Shown here: one piece after another, positions 4,154 through 43,127 of the stretch
Layout: the number at the start of each line of letters is the position of its first letter
How positions within the stretch are numbered: position 1 is the first letter of the stretch
Source: Candidatus Melainabacteria bacterium
GTDB taxonomy: Bacteria > Cyanobacteriota > Vampirovibrionia > Obscuribacterales > Obscuribacteraceae
Direction of reading: 5' to 3'
Length of the DNA: 64,000 nt
NCBI GenBank assembly: GCA_013288645.1
Contig: JABDBL010000003.1
Location: 62,001-126,000 of the forward strand
Notes under the pieces: generated by a model
Databases searched by the model: none
What the model was told of the DNA's origin: nothing
Seen by the model: the letters and a program-made list of their open reading frames with translations, nothing else
Program-made: the position numbers and the translations under genes

Positions 4154-5113
4154 ATGAGGAAATGTGTTTGTGCGTTCGCCTTGATGCTCATGCTCTGCTT
4201 CGTGCCGAGCGCGAGCGCTCAACGGGGCAAAGCAACGAGATCCAAGTCGGAAACCGCCACAGTCACCAATTCGAAGGGTAAGACCGCCAAGGTTACCGGA
4301 AGCGGGAACACCACCGTTAATCGGCAGGGCGGCTCGACAACGGCCACTCGCGATGGTACCGTCACAGCGACAGGTTCTAAGGGCGAGACGAAAACCGCTA
4401 CTGGCAGCGAAACCGCCACCGTTAATCGGCAGGGCGGCTCGACAACGGCCACTCGCAACGGCACCGTCACAGCGACAGGTTCTAAGGGCGAGACGAAAAC
4501 CGCTACTGGCAGCGAAACCGCCACCGTTAATCGGCAGGGCGGCTCGACAACAGCCACTCGCGATGGTACCGTCACAGCGACAGGTTCTAAGGGCGAGACG
4601 AAAACCGCTACTGGCAGCGAAACCGCCACCGTTAATCGGCAGGGCGGCTCGACAACGGCCACTCGCAACGGCACCGTCACAGCGACAGGTTCCAAGGGCG
4701 GGACGACGACGGCCACCGAAAACCGTACTACCACGGTCAATCGGCAAGGTGGTCCAACGACGGTCAATGCTTACGAGGCCTTTGGGCTTCGGGCGCCGTC
4801 TTCGACAACGGTCAATCGCAACACCAACACCGTGGTGATTGGGGGTGTCCACCACACCCTTTACCCAACACCGTTCGGGTCGATCCCAGTTCCGTCGGCT
4901 CGGCTCGGCATTCAGCCGCCTGTTACTGCCGCTGTTGTCAACCAGTCGGCGACCTCGGTCGTGGTGGGTCAATCGGCCACCCCTCCTGTTCCAGGTGCCG
5001 TTGGCGCAGCGATTTTACGTAGGAGAGCAGCGGAGGCCCTAGCTCCGGCTGCCGATCCGGTCCCCGAGGTCGTCGACCGTCCGATTTTACGACGGCGCCG
5101 CGGCGGACAGTAA
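4154..5113 (+). CDS. Secreted Thr/Gly/Ser-rich tandem-repeat protein
   Basis: Signal peptide MRKCVCAFALMLMLCFVPSASAQ. GGAGG at 4139-4143 fits ATG 4154. 35-aa repeats TVNRQGGSTTATRDGTVTATGSKGETKTATGSETA. C-terminus contains ILRRR twice. Confidence 0.8.
   Translation: MRKCVCAFALMLMLCFVPSASAQRGKATRSKSETATVTNSKGKTAKVTGSGNTTVNRQGGSTTATRDGTVTATGSKGETKTATGSETATVNRQGGSTTATRNGTVTATGSKGETKTATGSETATVNRQGGSTTATRDGTVTATGSKGETKTATGSETATVNRQGGSTTATRNGTVTATGSKGGTTTATENRTTTVNRQGGPTTVNAYEAFGLRAPSSTTVNRNTNTVVIGGVHHTLYPTPFGSIPVPSARLGIQPPVTAAVVNQSATSVVVGQSATPPVPGAVGAAILRRRAAEALAPAADPVPEVVDRPILRRRRGGQ
4311..4730 (+). repeat. Four tandem copies of a 105-bp (35-codon) coding repeat, plus a degenerate fifth start at 4731
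   Basis: ccaccgttaatcggcagggcggctc starts at 4311, 4416, 4521 and 4626; diverged ccacggtcaatcggcaaggtgg at 4731. Confidence 0.95.
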
Positions 5114-29570: not shown

Positions 29571-29601
29571 TACCATATTTGGTGCAGCTAGCATAGTCTT
29601 A

Positions 29602-30026
29602 TTAGTGTAGTGAAGGGCGACGGTGAGGCGTCCGAAGCGGAACGACCAAGGATACGCGCGTTGAGGCGAGGAACGAAGCCGAGGCAGCGCATAAATCAGG
29701 ACTGATACAAATTAGTGTAGTGAAGGGCGACGGTGAGGCGTCCGAAGCGGAACGACCAAGGATACGCGCGTTGAGGCGAGGAACGAAGCCGAGGCAGCGC
29801 ATAAATCAGGACTGATACAAATTAGTGTAGTGAAGGGCGACGGTGAGGCGTCCGAAGCGGAACGACCAAGGATACGCGCGTTGAGGCGAGGAACGAAGCC
29901 GAGGCAGCGCATAAATCAGGACTGATACAAATTAGTGTAGTGAAGGGCGACGGTGAGGCGTCCGAAGCGGAACGACCAAGGATACGCGCGTTGAGGCGAG
30001 GAACGAAGCCGAGGCAGCGCTTAAAT
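29602..30026 (+). repeat. Tandem array, about 4 copies of a 110-bp unit
   Basis: ttagtgtagtgaagggcgacggtgaggcgtccgaagcgg starts at 29602, 29712, 29822 and 29932. Confidence 0.97.
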
Positions 30027-30116: not shown

Positions 30117-30494
30117 ATGATTCAAACAATTACGACGGATAAGGCACCAAAGGTGGTTGGTCCTTATTCTCAAGCAATATTAGCCAATGGACTGGTTTTT
30201 TTATCTGGGCAAGTAGCAATAGATCCCAAAACCAATCAATTTACTGGTGGTTCGATAGAAGAGCAAACGAAACTGGCTTTAGATAATCTTTCAGCTGTTC
30301 TGCAGTCAGTTGGCAGTAATTTAAATAAAGCTCTTAAGACGACAGTATTTTTAAAGGATTTGGCAGATTTTGAAGTTATGAATAAAGTCTATGGTGAATA
30401 TTTCCCTGACTATAAACCGGCGCGGTCTACAATACAGATAGCCCGATTACCAAAGGATGCATTAATAGAAATTGAGATGATAGCTTTGTCTTAA
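30117..30494 (+). CDS. RidA-family (YjgF/YER057c) enamine/imine deaminase
   Basis: APKVVGPYSQAILANGLVFLSGQVAIDP...; PARSTIQIARLPKDALIEIEMIA. Confidence 0.95.
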   Translation: MIQTITTDKAPKVVGPYSQAILANGLVFLSGQVAIDPKTNQFTGGSIEEQTKLALDNLSAVLQSVGSNLNKALKTTVFLKDLADFEVMNKVYGEYFPDYKPARSTIQIARLPKDALIEIEMIALS

Positions 30495-33369: not shown

Positions 33370-35007
33370 TTATCTTAACCACTCTAGTTTAAACGGAATG
33401 GATTCTTGTTCAAGTTGTTCCAGGAATTTAGGCGGTAAGCCAGATCCAACGTGACGACATTTGAAAAATCCGCGGGCATCTCTGCCTTCTCTCTCTAAGT
33501 GGAATAGAGTACTGATGGCAATAATCTCGCCTTCCATCCCGGTTATCTCGGAAATTTCAGTTACTCTTCTAGTTCCATCTTCAAGACGACGAATTTGCAC
33601 GATTACTTGAATTGCAGAAGCAATTAATTCCCGTGCTGCCTTAGCGGGCATATCCATGCCTCCCATAAGAATCATATTTTCAAGACGTTTTGTACAGTCA
33701 CGTGGATTATTAGCGTGAATAGTTGTCATAGAACCAGAGTGACCCGTATTCATGGCCTGCAACATGTCGAATGCTTCTTCTCCCCGACATTCCCCCATTA
33801 TTATCCTATCGGGTCGCATACGGAGAGTATTTATAACTAACATGCGCTGTGTGATTTGACCTTTACCCTCAGTGTTGGCTGGTCTTGTTTCCATCCTCAC
33901 CCAGTGATCATGTTGTAGCCGCAATTCAGCTGCATCTTCGATTGTAATAATGCGTTCTCTTGGATTAATATGGGCAGATAGCGCATTAAGTAAGGTAGTT
34001 TTACCAGAACCTGTACCTCCAGAGATAATCAAGTTGATGCGTCCTTTTACGCAGGACTTGAGCACTTCAGCCATCTGTACAGACATGGCACCTTTTTCTA
34101 CCAATTGGCCAAGTGAGAGGGCATTAGCACCGAAACATCGTATGGTAATAGTCGGACCATCAATAGTTACAGGTGGAATGGTGGCATTAACACGGGAACC
34201 ATTCGGTAGGCGGGCATCCACCATTGGTGAGTTATCATCAAGTCTTCTGCCTAGAGGCTGAATAATTTTGTCGATTGTTTGGCGCAAGTGCTTTTCGTTT
34301 TCGAAAGCCACGCTGGTCTTCTCTAAGCGTCCATGACGTTCAACGTAAATGTTATTGACACCGTTAACACAAATATCACCTACGCTTGGATCACGAAGTA
34401 GTGGACCTAAGGGACCAAAACCAAATACTTCATCCAGTACATTCTGAAGCAATATACCTTTTTCCATCATGGTCAAAGGCGCTGGGTCAGAGTTTACAAT
34501 TTCACGAATACGGGCGCGTACCTGAGCTTGGGTATCTTCTGATATATTAGTCAGCCTTGAAGTGTCAAGTTCACGTCTTAATTGGTCAATAATAAACTTT
34601 TCTCGTTCACGAATCAGTCCTTGATTTGCTGAAAACTTGGCGTTTAAATCTCCACTTACGGCTGCGTTTTCCGCAGCACCGCCATGTCCGTATCCGCCTT
34701 CCTCTTTAGCATCAATGCGTTCGATATCTGATCTGCTAGGAGCAGCTGTGCTCTCTACCCCTGAGCCTGCAGCTTTGGCGCCACCAATACCGGTAGCAGG
34801 AGCACCTGGGCGTGCCATACCACTTTGTCCGGGTGGCGGAGCAGAAGAACGCCCACCCATACCGGTAGAACCTTGTTGTCCGGAAAGGCCCATTTGTTGC
34901 GGTTGCGCTGGTACAACATCAGCGCCTTGTCTTTGTCTGACCAACTGCCCCATCAATGAAGATGCTGGCTTAGCTGGAAGATTGGAATCTTTTCTATCGT
35001 CACCCAT
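33370..35007 (-). CDS. tadA: Tad pilus ATPase TadA/CpaF
   Basis: [85 protein letters not shown]. Confidence 0.96.
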
Positions 35008-35030
35008 GGCCCAAATTCACCATCCTTATT

Positions 35031-35413
35031 ATTAAACGCTGCTTCAGCTTCGTTCCTCGCTTCAACGCGTGTATCCTTGTTCGTTCCGTTTCGGACGCCT
35101 CACCGTCGCCCTTCACTGCACTAAGTTGTATTGTTCCTTCTATTAAACGCTGCTTCAGCTTCGTTCCTCGCTTCAACGCGTGTATCCTTGTTCGTTCCGT
35201 TTCGGACGCCTCACCGTCGCCCTTCACTGCACTAAGTTGTATTGTTCCTTCTATTAAACGCTGCTTCAGCTTCGTTCCTCGCTTCAACGCGTGTATCCTT
35301 GTTCGTTCCGTTTCGGACGCCTCACCGTCGCCCTTCACTGCACTAAGTTGTATTGTTCCTTCTATTAAATGCTGCTTCAGCTTTATTTATTGTTTCGACG
35401 CGCGTATCTTTAG
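35031..35413 (-). repeat. Tandem array: three 111-bp units plus a degenerate partial copy
   Basis: attaaacgctgcttcagcttcgttcc at 35031, 35142 and 35253; diverged start at 35364. Reverse complement is related to the 29602 array. Confidence 0.95.
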
Positions 35414-35471
35414 AAGTTTTCTTCGACGCTTTTGGCAGTTGCCGTTAAATCTATATTACTCCTTGCTTTAA

Positions 35472-36653
35472 TTAGCGTTTGAAAAATGCAGGTAATTTGA
35501 ACCCTTTAGTAGCCGGCTCAGAATCTTTTTGTCCAATTAGAAGTTGTTCGCCTCCTCCTAATCTTCTTGCTAATGAATCAAGAGATTTGCCTAATGCTGA
35601 TTGCGGAGGAGAAATTTGTCCCTGGTTATTTGCCCATTTAGCTGTTTTTACATCATTAGGAATTTCGTGAAAAATAGGATAGTTTAAACTGGCGCGACAC
35701 TCACTTAATACATCTTGTGGCTGCCATTCCGAGCGGTTAATTATCAGCAATAATTTTTCTTGATTATAATGTGCCTTAAAAGTGTCAAGACATTTGCGAG
35801 CATTAACAATGGCGGCCCAGTTGTACTCCGTTACAACCAATACTTCGTCAGCTAAATCAAGGGTGGCGATTGCACGTTCATCTAGAAGATTTTTGGGTAA
35901 ATCAACCAAAGTAAATCGGAATTCTTGTTTGGCAGTGTATAAAATTTCTTGTACTTGGGCAGCGTAAATATCGCCAATATCTTCTAAGTCTGGTGGAGCG
36001 GCAAGAATACTTAGCTTTTCATCATATCTAGTCATCAAGTTACGCAAATAAGTGGCATCAAAATTAGTATGTGAAAAGTCTATAGTGCTAAGACTGAAAG
36101 AGGGTTCGAGATTTAAATATTGAGCTACCATGCCGAATTGCAGATCGAGATCCACTATGCATGCTTCGCCATATTTGCCTAAATAACCAGCTAAATTGGT
36201 GCAAATTGTTGTAGCACCGATACCGCCAGTGGGGCTAAAGGTAGCAATTACTTTACCGGCGGCTGTAGATATGGATTCACTTTGATGTTTCAGTTGGATA
36301 CTTTGGACAGCGGCGGGTAAATCTGTTCGCCAACGTTCGGCATCCAGGAAGTCCGAAGCCCCTAATCGATAGGCTGTCCTAATCAATTCAGGGTCTGGGA
36401 CTTCATAACTAACGAAAAAATAAACCTCAGGGAAGGTTTCTCTCAATTCGGCTAAAAGTGAAAGGCCACGGACGGGAGCAGGGCTAAGCTCGATCCATAC
36501 TAATTTAGGATGTAGGCTGCCTATCTGTTCTCGCGCCATGCTGCCTGAAACAGTACTTACCAAAGCTAAAGAAGGTTGACTGTGAATCAAGTCTTCAATT
36601 GTTTGGCGTTTGTCCAAACCAGCGTCACAAACTAATAATGTGGTCAGTTTCAT
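35472..36653 (-). CDS. TadZ/CpaE-like pilus localisation protein
   Basis: Receiver-like N-terminus plus ParA/MinD-like domain KVIATFSPTGGIGATTICTNLAGYLGKYGEACIVDLDLQFG. Confidence 0.87.
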   Translation of the reverse strand: MKLTTLLVCDAGLDKRQTIEDLIHSQPSLALVSTVSGSMAREQIGSLHPKLVWIELSPAPVRGLSLLAELRETFPEVYFFVSYEVPDPELIRTAYRLGASDFLDAERWRTDLPAAVQSIQLKHQSESISTAAGKVIATFSPTGGIGATTICTNLAGYLGKYGEACIVDLDLQFGMVAQYLNLEPSFSLSTIDFSHTNFDATYLRNLMTRYDEKLSILAAPPDLEDIGDIYAAQVQEILYTAKQEFRFTLVDLPKNLLDERAIATLDLADEVLVVTEYNWAAIVNARKCLDTFKAHYNQEKLLLIINRSEWQPQDVLSECRASLNYPIFHEIPNDVKTAKWANNQGQISPPQSALGKSLDSLARRLGGGEQLLIGQKDSEPATKGFKLPAFFKR

Positions 36654-36667
36654 GCTTTACCCTTTAA

Positions 36668-36761
36668 ATTAAACGCTGCTTCGGCTTCGTCCCTCGCCTC
36701 AACGCGCGTATCCTTGTTCGTTCCGTTTCGGCCGCCTCACTGTCGCCCTTCACTGCACTAA
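36668..36761 (-). repeat. Single dispersed copy of the same repeat family
   Basis: attaaacgctgcttcggcttcgtccctcgcctcaacgcgcgtatccttgttcgttccgtttcggccgcctcactgtcgcccttcactgcactaa. Confidence 0.93.
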
Positions 36762-36856
36762 TCCGTATTACCTCTTCCGGTATTAACTATTAATTTTGTA
36801 CCCAACCGGATAGAGATGAATCCCTTCCCTAAAGTCAACATTAATTAAGTCTATGC

Positions 36857-37804
36857 TTAGCTACTAGGTACGGATATCACATCCTTTTTGCTGCCTGACC
36901 ATATTTCTACTTCATGCAGTGGAGGTGGTGGAGGGGCAGCTGAATTCATAGCACCTGGCATACCGCCCATGTCTGGAGCACCAGGAAGAGGAGGAGGAGG
37001 TAATGAACTTGGTGGTTGAAGAGCGAGATCGTCCTTGCCACCTGGTCCGCCGCCACTAAACATAGAAGTTACATCGACAGTAGCAACAGGAGTGCGATCC
37101 TTGTCGTTTCTGAGTGTCAAATAAAGTTTGCTAGCGCTAATTGCTTTAATCAATTTAGTAGCATCGTCTGGTGACACACAAACGGTAACTGAGCTTGTTG
37201 GCATAGCAGCAGATTGTCCAGGAGCCTTTTGATAAAGTTGGCCTACAGCGATAACTTCAACGTCCGATAAAATCGGGGAAGCTTTTGTATCAGCTCCTGT
37301 ACCGACCATGGCGATGACATCAACATGGCTATCTGGGGTAACGAAACCAGCAACGCCGGAATTATTATCTATACCGAAAGTTACTGCTCTCATACCTTGT
37401 TTGAGCTTTGATTCGAAACCCAAAGAAATACCTTGTGGTGCCAAATCATGCTGAGAAACAATCTGTCCAGCCAAGATGCCGTATTTTGCAATGCGGCCAG
37501 TAGCAAGACTGGCAGAAGTAATAGCGTCTTGGGGGATTTTGCTTTGCTCAATTTCTTTTTCTTCAAGGGCATCCCCTGGGATGGGTTGTCCTTCTGCAAT
37601 GTCGTGGACTGTATAGACTACTTTACCTTTGGCATTAGCTTTTTGCTCTAATTCAGCCTTTCGGGCTTCATATGTTTTTTGTGACTCAGTAATAATGCTT
37701 GTCACACCCATAGCTATGACACCTGCCACAACCACGATAATAACTAATAGCAAAGCAATCGGTATTCTTGAGAGTTGTAATACCAGAGCTCGTAACGGAT
37801 TCAT
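36857..37804 (-). CDS. cpaB: Flp pilus assembly protein CpaB/RcpC
   Basis: VVYTVHDIAEGQPIPGDALEEKEI (SAF domain), GMRAVTFGIDNNSGVAGFVTPDSHVDVIAMV. Confidence 0.9.
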   Translation of the reverse strand: MNPLRALVLQLSRIPIALLLVIIVVVAGVIAMGVTSIITESQKTYEARKAELEQKANAKGKVVYTVHDIAEGQPIPGDALEEKEIEQSKIPQDAITSASLATGRIAKYGILAGQIVSQHDLAPQGISLGFESKLKQGMRAVTFGIDNNSGVAGFVTPDSHVDVIAMVGTGADTKASPILSDVEVIAVGQLYQKAPGQSAAMPTSSVTVCVSPDDATKLIKAISASKLYLTLRNDKDRTPVATVDVTSMFSGGGPGGKDDLALQPPSSLPPPPLPGAPDMGGMPGAMNSAAPPPPPLHEVEIWSGSKKDVISVPSS

Positions 37805-41164: not shown

Positions 41165-41178
41165 GATTGTGGGTCTGC

Positions 41179-41520
41179 GCTGAACTTCATTCCCATTATT
41201 AACATAAGCGCTGCCTCGCTCTCGCACTGCTCGGCTCAACGCGCGTATTAACGCTACACTACCGCCGCTTCCCCAGCGCCGTTCGTTACGCTGAACTTCA
41301 TTCCCATTATTAACATAAGCGCTGCCTCGCTCTCGCACTGCTCGGCTCAACGCGCGTATTAACGCTACACTACCGCCGCTTCCCCAGCGCCGTTCGTTAC
41401 GCTGAACTTCATTCCCATTATTAACATAAGCGCTGCCTCGCTCTCGCACTGCTCGGCTCAACGCGCGTATTAACGCTACACTACCGCCGCTTCCCCAGCG
41501 CCGTTCGTTACGCTGAACTT
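41179..41520 (-). repeat. Three tandem copies of a 111-bp unit plus partial, abutting guaA
   Basis: gctgaacttcattcccatt starts at 41179, 41290, 41401 and 41512; the last copy runs into the guaA 3' end. Confidence 0.96.
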
Positions 41521-43127
41521 CATTCCCATTCTATAGTGGCGGGGGGTTTGGAGGTTATATCGTATACAACCCGGTTAATACCAGCTACTTCATTAACAAT
41601 GCGAGAAGAAATTTTTTCCAACAAATCGAAGGGTAGTCGGGCCCAATCTGCTGTCATACCATCTTCCGAAGTAACTGCTCTAATAACGATTTGATTTTGA
41701 TAGGTTCTTTGATCGCCCATTACACCGACTGACTTGGTAGGCAATAATACACCGAAAACTTGCCAGACTTTTCTGTATAATCCATGAGCTTTTATTTCTT
41801 CCCGAATAATCCAGTCTGCTTCGCGCAGAACTTTTAGCCTTTCTTTTGTTACTTCACCAAGCACGCGGATAGCCAGACCTGGTCCAGGGAATGGATGCCT
41901 TCCGCGAATGCTTTCCGGTACATCTAATTCTTTTGCTACTAGGCGCACTTCGTCTTTGAATAATTTAGCGAAGGGTTCGATGAGCTTAAATTTCAAATCT
42001 TTTGGTAATCCACCAACGTTGTGATGAGATTTGATTTTTACTGCTACGCGTTCACCTGTCTTAGGATCAATTTGAGTACCTGCTGATTCAATGACATCTG
42101 GATATAATGTGCCTTGAGCTAAATAATCAAAAGGACCTAGCCTCTTAGATTCTTCCTCAAATACACGAATAAATTCAGAGCCAATGGCTTTACGTTTTTC
42201 CTCTGGATCTATTACGCCGTCTAATTTGGCTAGAAAACGATCGCGAGCTTTAACGTAATGAACATGTATTTTGAAATCGCGTTCGAAAGTATCCACTAAC
42301 CATTCGGGCTCGTTTTTACGCATGAATCCTTGATCTATGAACATACAAACTAATTTGTCGCCAATAGCCTTATGTAATAGAAATGCTAAAGTTGAACTGT
42401 CAACTCCTCCAGAAAGAGCAAGCAATACTCTTTTATCTCCTGCTTTTTTGCGAACTTCAGCGATTGCCTCGTCTATAAATTCTTTCATTGTCCAATTTTG
42501 TTGACTACTGCAAATGTCGACAACAAAATTGCGCAGGATTTGTAAGCCTCCTTGTGTATGTGCTACTTCTGGATGGAATTGAACGCCGTAAAAATTCCTG
42601 TCTTCGTCAGCTATAGCAGCAACAGGGGTAACTCGTGTATTGCCAATAAGGCGAAAACCGACTGGCAAAGCAGCGACACTGTCGCCATGGCTCATCCAAC
42701 TTTCAATGCTGGCATCGAGGTTAGCGAATAATTTGCCATGGTGAACGATTGTCAGCAGGGCTCGGCCATATTCTTTTACTTGAGCTGCTTCAACCTGACC
42801 TTGAAGGTCTCTGGCCATTAATTGCATGCCATAACATATGCCTAATACCGGTACACCTAGCTTCCAGATTTCTGGGTCAACTTGTGGTGCTCCAGGATCA
42901 TAAACGCTATTAGGGCCACCCGATAAAATTATGCCCTTAACTTTCATTTCACGAAGCTTCTTAGCAGTCGTATTATAAGGAAGAAGCTCTGAGTATGTTT
43001 TTAGCTCCCGAACCCTTCTAGCGATTAATTGCGAGTATTGGGCGCCAAAGTCAAGAATGGCAATTCTATCGGCATTAGTTACATGAGCAGAATTTGTTTC
43101 GGACAATTTCTCTTGTTCCTTGATCAT
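41520..43127 (-). CDS. guaA: GMP synthase (glutamine-hydrolysing)
   Basis: [56 protein letters not shown]-term [13 protein letters not shown]. Confidence 0.98.

Follow-up and report, generated by a model that had tools for sequence, protein, structure and literature searches.

The ERIC/IRU repeats of enterobacteria have a length of about 127 bp. As summarised in PMC2229807, they are intergenic, co-transcribed and folded as RNA, and have an orientation-dependent effect on the upstream mRNA in Yersinia. Correia/NEMIS elements are transcribed stem-loops (PMC2229807), and the BOX elements of Streptococcus pneumoniae are modular, copy-variable structured repeats beside genes, which are transcribed in untranslated regions (UTRs) and in which the effect of boxB depends on orientation (PMC3049150).

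The element described here, which occurs in the Tad pilus gene cluster of a Melainabacteria genome, resembles each of these systems in part. While ERIC is one long palindrome, the element has two separate hairpins, occurs in tandem arrays whose period is about 110, has a start codon or Shine-Dalgarno (SD) motif at its 3' edge, and is found in one Melainabacteria family only; its 55:10 sense bias would nevertheless be compatible with an ERIC-type orientation-dependent effect on mRNA stability. Unlike in BOX, whole two-hairpin units are repeated instead of an inner boxB, the boxA-boxBn-boxC modularity was not observed, the sense bias is strong, and matching IS ends were not found. REP/BIME/REPIN sequences are likewise dispersed intergenic hairpins in operons, but the element is not composed of inverted pairs, and Y1 transposase was not found in the copy-rich genomes. 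With the Correia/NEMIS and RUP MITEs the element shares the size class (~105-155 bp) and the many copies, whereas its fold is strand-asymmetric, and neither long terminal inverted repeats nor target duplication was demonstrated. Finally, a compensated fold just before start codons with an SD beside a stem recalls the riboswitches and other leader-type cis-regulatory RNAs, but the element stands before unrelated genes, in dozens of copies per genome, and has no Rfam match.

Repeat units in the Tad cluster and beyond

The DNA analysed (the window) is a stretch of 64,000 nucleotides, G000:C3:62001-126000, in which G000 is a Melainabacteria MAG (assembly of 2.78 Mb, 72% complete); G001 is its sister species. 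An earlier note on this DNA had placed a 111-bp array between the tadZ-like and tadA genes and a single copy between the cpaB and tadZ-like genes, all reading with Tad transcription. TRF and a covariance model located both, and every copy in the cluster lies on the minus strand, which is the transcribed strand (Table 1). By TRF the tadZ-tadA array spans 35030-35383 (period 111, 3.2 copies, 99% match), and an 18-mer of the motif that had been quoted for the repeat occurs eight times in the window at up to three mismatches, as compared with none in 100 shuffles. The listing of repeats was right for the two Tad sites and incomplete otherwise, as it omitted the plus-strand array and the divergent-subtype array of Table 1. 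The latter immediately follows the 3' end of the GMP synthase gene (41520-43127, minus strand). Two T2SSF proteins are encoded downstream in the Tad cluster (Pfam). An unrelated 105-bp x3.8 tandem repeat at 4253-4777 of the window has a period divisible by three and is probably coding. A coding origin of the element was rejected. One reading frame of the tadZ-tadA array is open (ORF 35000-35338), but elsewhere the frame is lost through unit lengths of 110-113, and other copies contain stops.

Table 1. Element copies, hairpins and neighbouring genes in the window (CM, covariance model)
Feature	Position	Strand	Evidence and context
Four units, period 110	29599-30025	+	Upstream of RidA-family gene (30117-30494, +); TRF 29601-30026, x3.9
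tadA (T2SSE ATPase)	33370-35007	-	Pfam; array ends 23 nt before start codon
Three near-identical two-hairpin units	35253-35349, 35142-35238, 35031-35127	-	Period 111, tadZ-tadA gap; CM 104.7 bits each
Decayed fourth unit, tadZ-side 5' end of array	35364-35457	-	CM 23.6 / 21.2 bits
tadZ-like ParA-type ATPase	35472-36653	-	Pfam
Single copy, cpaB-tadZ gap	36668-36764	-	CM 99.6 bits; tadZ start codon 14 nt past its end
Hairpin H2 of single copy (ACGCG...GCAGCGT), GA/GA internal loops	36673-36709	-	RNAalifold, pair counts
Hairpin H1 of single copy (AGTG...GAACGA)	36718-36759	-	RNAalifold, pair counts
cpaB/rcpC (RcpC/CpaB)	36857-37804	-	Pfam
Three units of divergent subtype, period 111	41203-41519	-	TRF 41178-41530, x3.2

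The tadZ-tadA array is present in both sister species, strongly diverged and folding alike, with three intact units in G000 and two in G001. In other genera the element is absent beside tadA, and thus the insertion in the tad cluster arose within the genus; since the gap in the two genera where it could be read is only ~20-25 nt, the array amounts to a longer intercistronic spacer. The copies had been described as interrupting the cluster, and it is the spacer that was lengthened, with no gene interrupted. At the cpaB-tadZ site G001 has no element, but an unaligned 22-nt stretch there may be a remnant.

It had also been proposed that single and tandem forms could modulate transcript processing or phase variation of the pili. 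Both forms are present in transcript orientation, and a role at the RNA level is plausible. Pilus-specific control found no support, as many of the downstream genes are housekeeping genes, including ribosomal protein genes, gyrA, glmS, nuoB/C, aspS, plsX and others. Switching of pilus expression by changes in copy number of the 111-bp array would agree with the three intact units in G000 versus two at the equivalent site in the sister species, and with near-identical units that could recombine; however, the units are 110-112 bp and not simple-sequence repeats, no sign of switching was seen, and the element is spread genome-wide, mostly before housekeeping genes. Phase variation is therefore unsupported, and we consider it very unlikely.

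About 80-90 copies in ~50 places or clusters were found in G000: BLAST with one unit gave 48 places, the covariance model R1 (built from 18 copies) gave 97 matches at E <= 1 and ~85 at E <= 0.01, and the broader covariance model R2 gave 88 matches at E <= 1e-4. Array periods in G000 are typically 108-113 despite differing linkers and arms, and tandem copies repeat the whole unit, linker included. With R2, the element was found in 20 of the 40 genomes sampled from the window's bacterial family (77 copies in G008), in which copy number is patchy (0 to ~88). A class-wide sample had matches in 21 of 146 genomes, every one within that single family. When R1 was run over 292 genomes of the phylum, G000 was the sole match, in a sample that may hold few family members and under stricter filters. 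The H2 core pattern had no match in a viral contig collection, and its matches in the contig collection were only to 'Candidatus Melainabacteria bacterium isolate clean16' contigs. Rfam gave none at gathering level in the window and nothing related at a relaxed E-value (a chance snoRNA match at the relaxed threshold falls outside the repeats and was set aside), and nothing relevant was found in the literature on Obscuribacterales or Melainabacteria repeats. The element is a family not previously listed of ~100-nt RNA hairpin modules, confined, as sampled, to one Melainabacteria family.

The two-hairpin fold

The element is represented by a 97-nt model of two separate hairpins (H1 and H2), after which comes an AU-rich tail. 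With no structure supplied, RNAalifold on alignment A1 returned H1 around a GGTGA loop together with H2, which is drawn as ACGC GUU GA GGC ... GCC GA RGC A GCGC, and 9 of its 17 pairs had changed on both sides and were yet kept. The named 24-pair structure was 89.9% paired, as compared with 26-43% for slid controls, and had 14 doubly changed pairs, whereas shuffles had 6.4 (none of the 500 reached 14) and slid controls no more than 4; as the aligned copies are related, non-independent sequences, covariation p-values are indicative only. By the generic measure of a structured RNA, compensatory changes exceeded those of the controls. An alignment of 24 copies from other genera (MAFFT, sequence only, ~61% alike) gave the same core, with 10 of 13 pairs compensated, and in both alignments the strongest covarying columns were mostly base pairs of the model. 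GA and GGA purine mismatches recur between the stems. Other pairings, of the element ends or at the H1/H2 junction, did not occur among the covarying pairs. Single units, on either strand and as RNA or DNA, folded no better than shuffles; the fold thus rests on comparison.

The strand that folds could also be determined. G-U pairs outnumbered A-C mismatches by 108 to 30 in alignment A5, which had been fitted to the model, and by 10 to 1 in the structure-blind alignment A6. Because selection on both DNA strands should give equal counts, the gene-sense strand is the folded one. Taken together, the comparisons of aligned sequences demonstrated that the element has a conserved, strand-specific two-hairpin fold as predicted for its RNA.

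Two further structural observations concern individual copies. In a long variant of the element in G000 (C16; L106:14465-14603), the arms are expanded in a paired fashion by a 17-nt unit x2.9 and a 25-nt unit x3.1, and since CAATGG in one arm stands opposite CCATTG in the other, pairing was apparently kept as the stem grew. Another hairpin, GGCGTATGAGTTACGCC or a sequence close to it, recurs as an insertion within or beside the elements in L099, L106, L107, L108, L114 and L119 (C10, C16, C17, C32, C37).

Orientation and ribosome-binding motifs

Placement was counted on gene models and starts from a codon-usage caller written for this analysis. In co-directional gaps, 55 copies are sense to both neighbours and 10 are antisense to both (p ~1e-8); the earlier note had named the absence of a genome-wide orientation bias as evidence against its proposal, and the bias is present. 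In divergent gaps, the closer of the two genes is the one in sense orientation to the element for 22 of 26 copies. Overlap with a called gene exceeds 40 nt in only 6 of 188 copies. The bias is strong in G000 (27:2), but the sister species has a weak one (10:4). Replication direction is argued against as the cause, because arrays of the window that are separated by only 5 kb are on different strands, each matching its own genes. A bias purely from Rho would arise if antisense insertions exposed a C-rich strand and thereby terminated transcription, and the antisense strand is indeed C-rich and G-poor. The Rho RNA-binding domain, however, was found in none of seven genomes of the family (five of them 89-98% complete), while the controls were positive. 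Rho-dependent termination therefore cannot explain the sense bias, and we regard this explanation as extremely improbable.

The position of start codons relative to the element was not uniform. Among the 59 copies that end at most 60 nt before a sense start, 19 have the start codon 1-3 nt past the element, and a second spacing group has it ~11-15 nt past. All 19 have a single suitably placed SD-like motif, namely the GGAG/GAGG that the element itself carries in the 3' arm of H2, 9-13 nt ahead of the start codon. An ATG at the 1-3 nt spacing occurs in 17 of 60 copies before a sense gene versus 2 of 44 copies without one (Fisher p 0.002), and in several cases the start is pinned by catalytic residues (MCGIVGY in GlmS; MCGIAGY in an asparagine-synthase-like protein). 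The second group, to which tadA (23 nt) and tadZ (14 nt) belong, has a separate AAGGAG-like motif after the element. These sequence features suggest that the element sometimes supplies the ribosome-binding site of the downstream gene. Four predicted genes start inside H2 (L093:2464-2554, L122:2578-2713, L144:2378-2473 and L217:11948-12175); their products, one of them DnaE-like, begin with MK-x-(T/P)-E-R-L, as if the element had provided the start codon as well as the first seven codons.

Downstream genes in common are almost all shared by G000 and G001, with just one pair between other genera, and no conserved regulon was therefore seen. An action on initiation is impossible for the many copies in convergent gaps, which are located at the 3' ends of genes. 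Many copies have the 3' end GCGCTTAA, at which convergent genes often stop exactly (distance 0 to -6 nt), and the TAA stop of such genes is the reverse strand of the element's TTAA. By eye, several copies adjoin tRNA genes in either orientation: L183, L184, L189 and L199 in G008, L130 in G001 and L118 in G000. A promoter reading of the TATA-like tail was rejected, as flank profiles had no conserved -35 at the correct distance.

Spread and proposed role of the element

In ribosomal protein operons, several sites with gaps of ~11-48 nt in G001 correspond to gaps of 138-569 nt with 1-5 elements in G000, and tandem growth proceeds in ~110-nt units in a lineage-specific manner. At the element-free sites in G001 the junctions are strongly diverged, and clean target duplication was not seen. 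In a check for MITE-type inverted repeats, the element ends had an 8-9 nt similarity, TTTA(A)GCGC, which does not covary.

The main rival explanation is that the copies are purely selfish, non-autonomous MITE-like DNA repeats, in which the fold would serve mobility through recognition of a single-stranded or RNA intermediate, the sense bias would reflect the loss of harmful antisense insertions, and the host function would be nil. The patchy copy number in the family (0 to ~88), the element-free sites in the sister species, the near-identical tandem units, the weak terminal similarity (TTTAGCGC.../...GCGCTTAAA), the few downstream genes common between genera, and the copies in convergent gaps are all in its favor. 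On the other hand, the strand-specific tolerance of G-U and the link to the gene strand fit RNA better than DNA, and random insertion leaves the 1-3 nt start spacing with an internal SD unexplained. Clear target duplication was not found, nor was a candidate source of mobility: reverse transcriptase was absent in G008, G017, G018 and G022, and Y1 transposase (Y1_Tnp) in the copy-rich G000 (72% complete), G001 (96%), G008 (98%, 77 copies), G018 and G022 (97%), with control genomes positive. Mobility of the REP/RAYT type or by reverse transcription is thus unsupported. REP/REPIN-type repeats that depend on a RAYT (Y1) transposase for their mobility would also be intergenic hairpin pairs in many copies, but H1 and H2 are not inverted copies of each other, and we consider that identity extremely improbable. 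A purely selfish repeat is considerably easier to accept, and we still judge it on the whole unlikely.

The best explanation as a whole, and one that we consider somewhat probable, is that the elements are ERIC/BOX-like structured repeats that turned into UTR modules affecting translation initiation and/or mRNA processing. Each unit would be transcribed with the neighbouring gene and fold into the GA-mismatch-rich H1 and H2; in the mRNA, the element would act in cis as a leader or an intercistronic module. Initiation of downstream translation would be set by access to the SD beside H2, and the element possibly marks a cleavage or stability boundary between cistrons. Since the SD in the tadZ-tadA gap lies outside the array, the effect expected there is on stability, processing or the decoupling of tadA from tadZ, and it would be graded with unit number for tadA relative to tadZ, with no switch. 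The spread was probably that of a non-autonomous element. A further proposal, in our opinion doubtful, is that the element is a translation-initiation module that is portable: a structured RNA that spreads by itself and would bring its own SD, and sometimes a start codon, to genes. Unrelated housekeeping genes, dozens of them, would thereby come under a common RNA fold controllable by a trans-acting protein, temperature or the ribosome itself.

Small bacterial repeats have mostly been described as DNA palindromes with occasional mRNA effects. In contrast, the element covaries in a strand-specific way, is biased to the sense strand and has a fixed spacing to start codons, all of which points to selection on RNA. 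The modules entered ribosomal protein, gyrA, glmS, nuo and tad clusters in a lineage in which Rho was not found, and they provide a clear and testable case in which essential genes would have obtained their ribosome-binding region from an interspersed repeat. For the annotation of Melainabacteria genomes, the element adds an uncatalogued RNA family.
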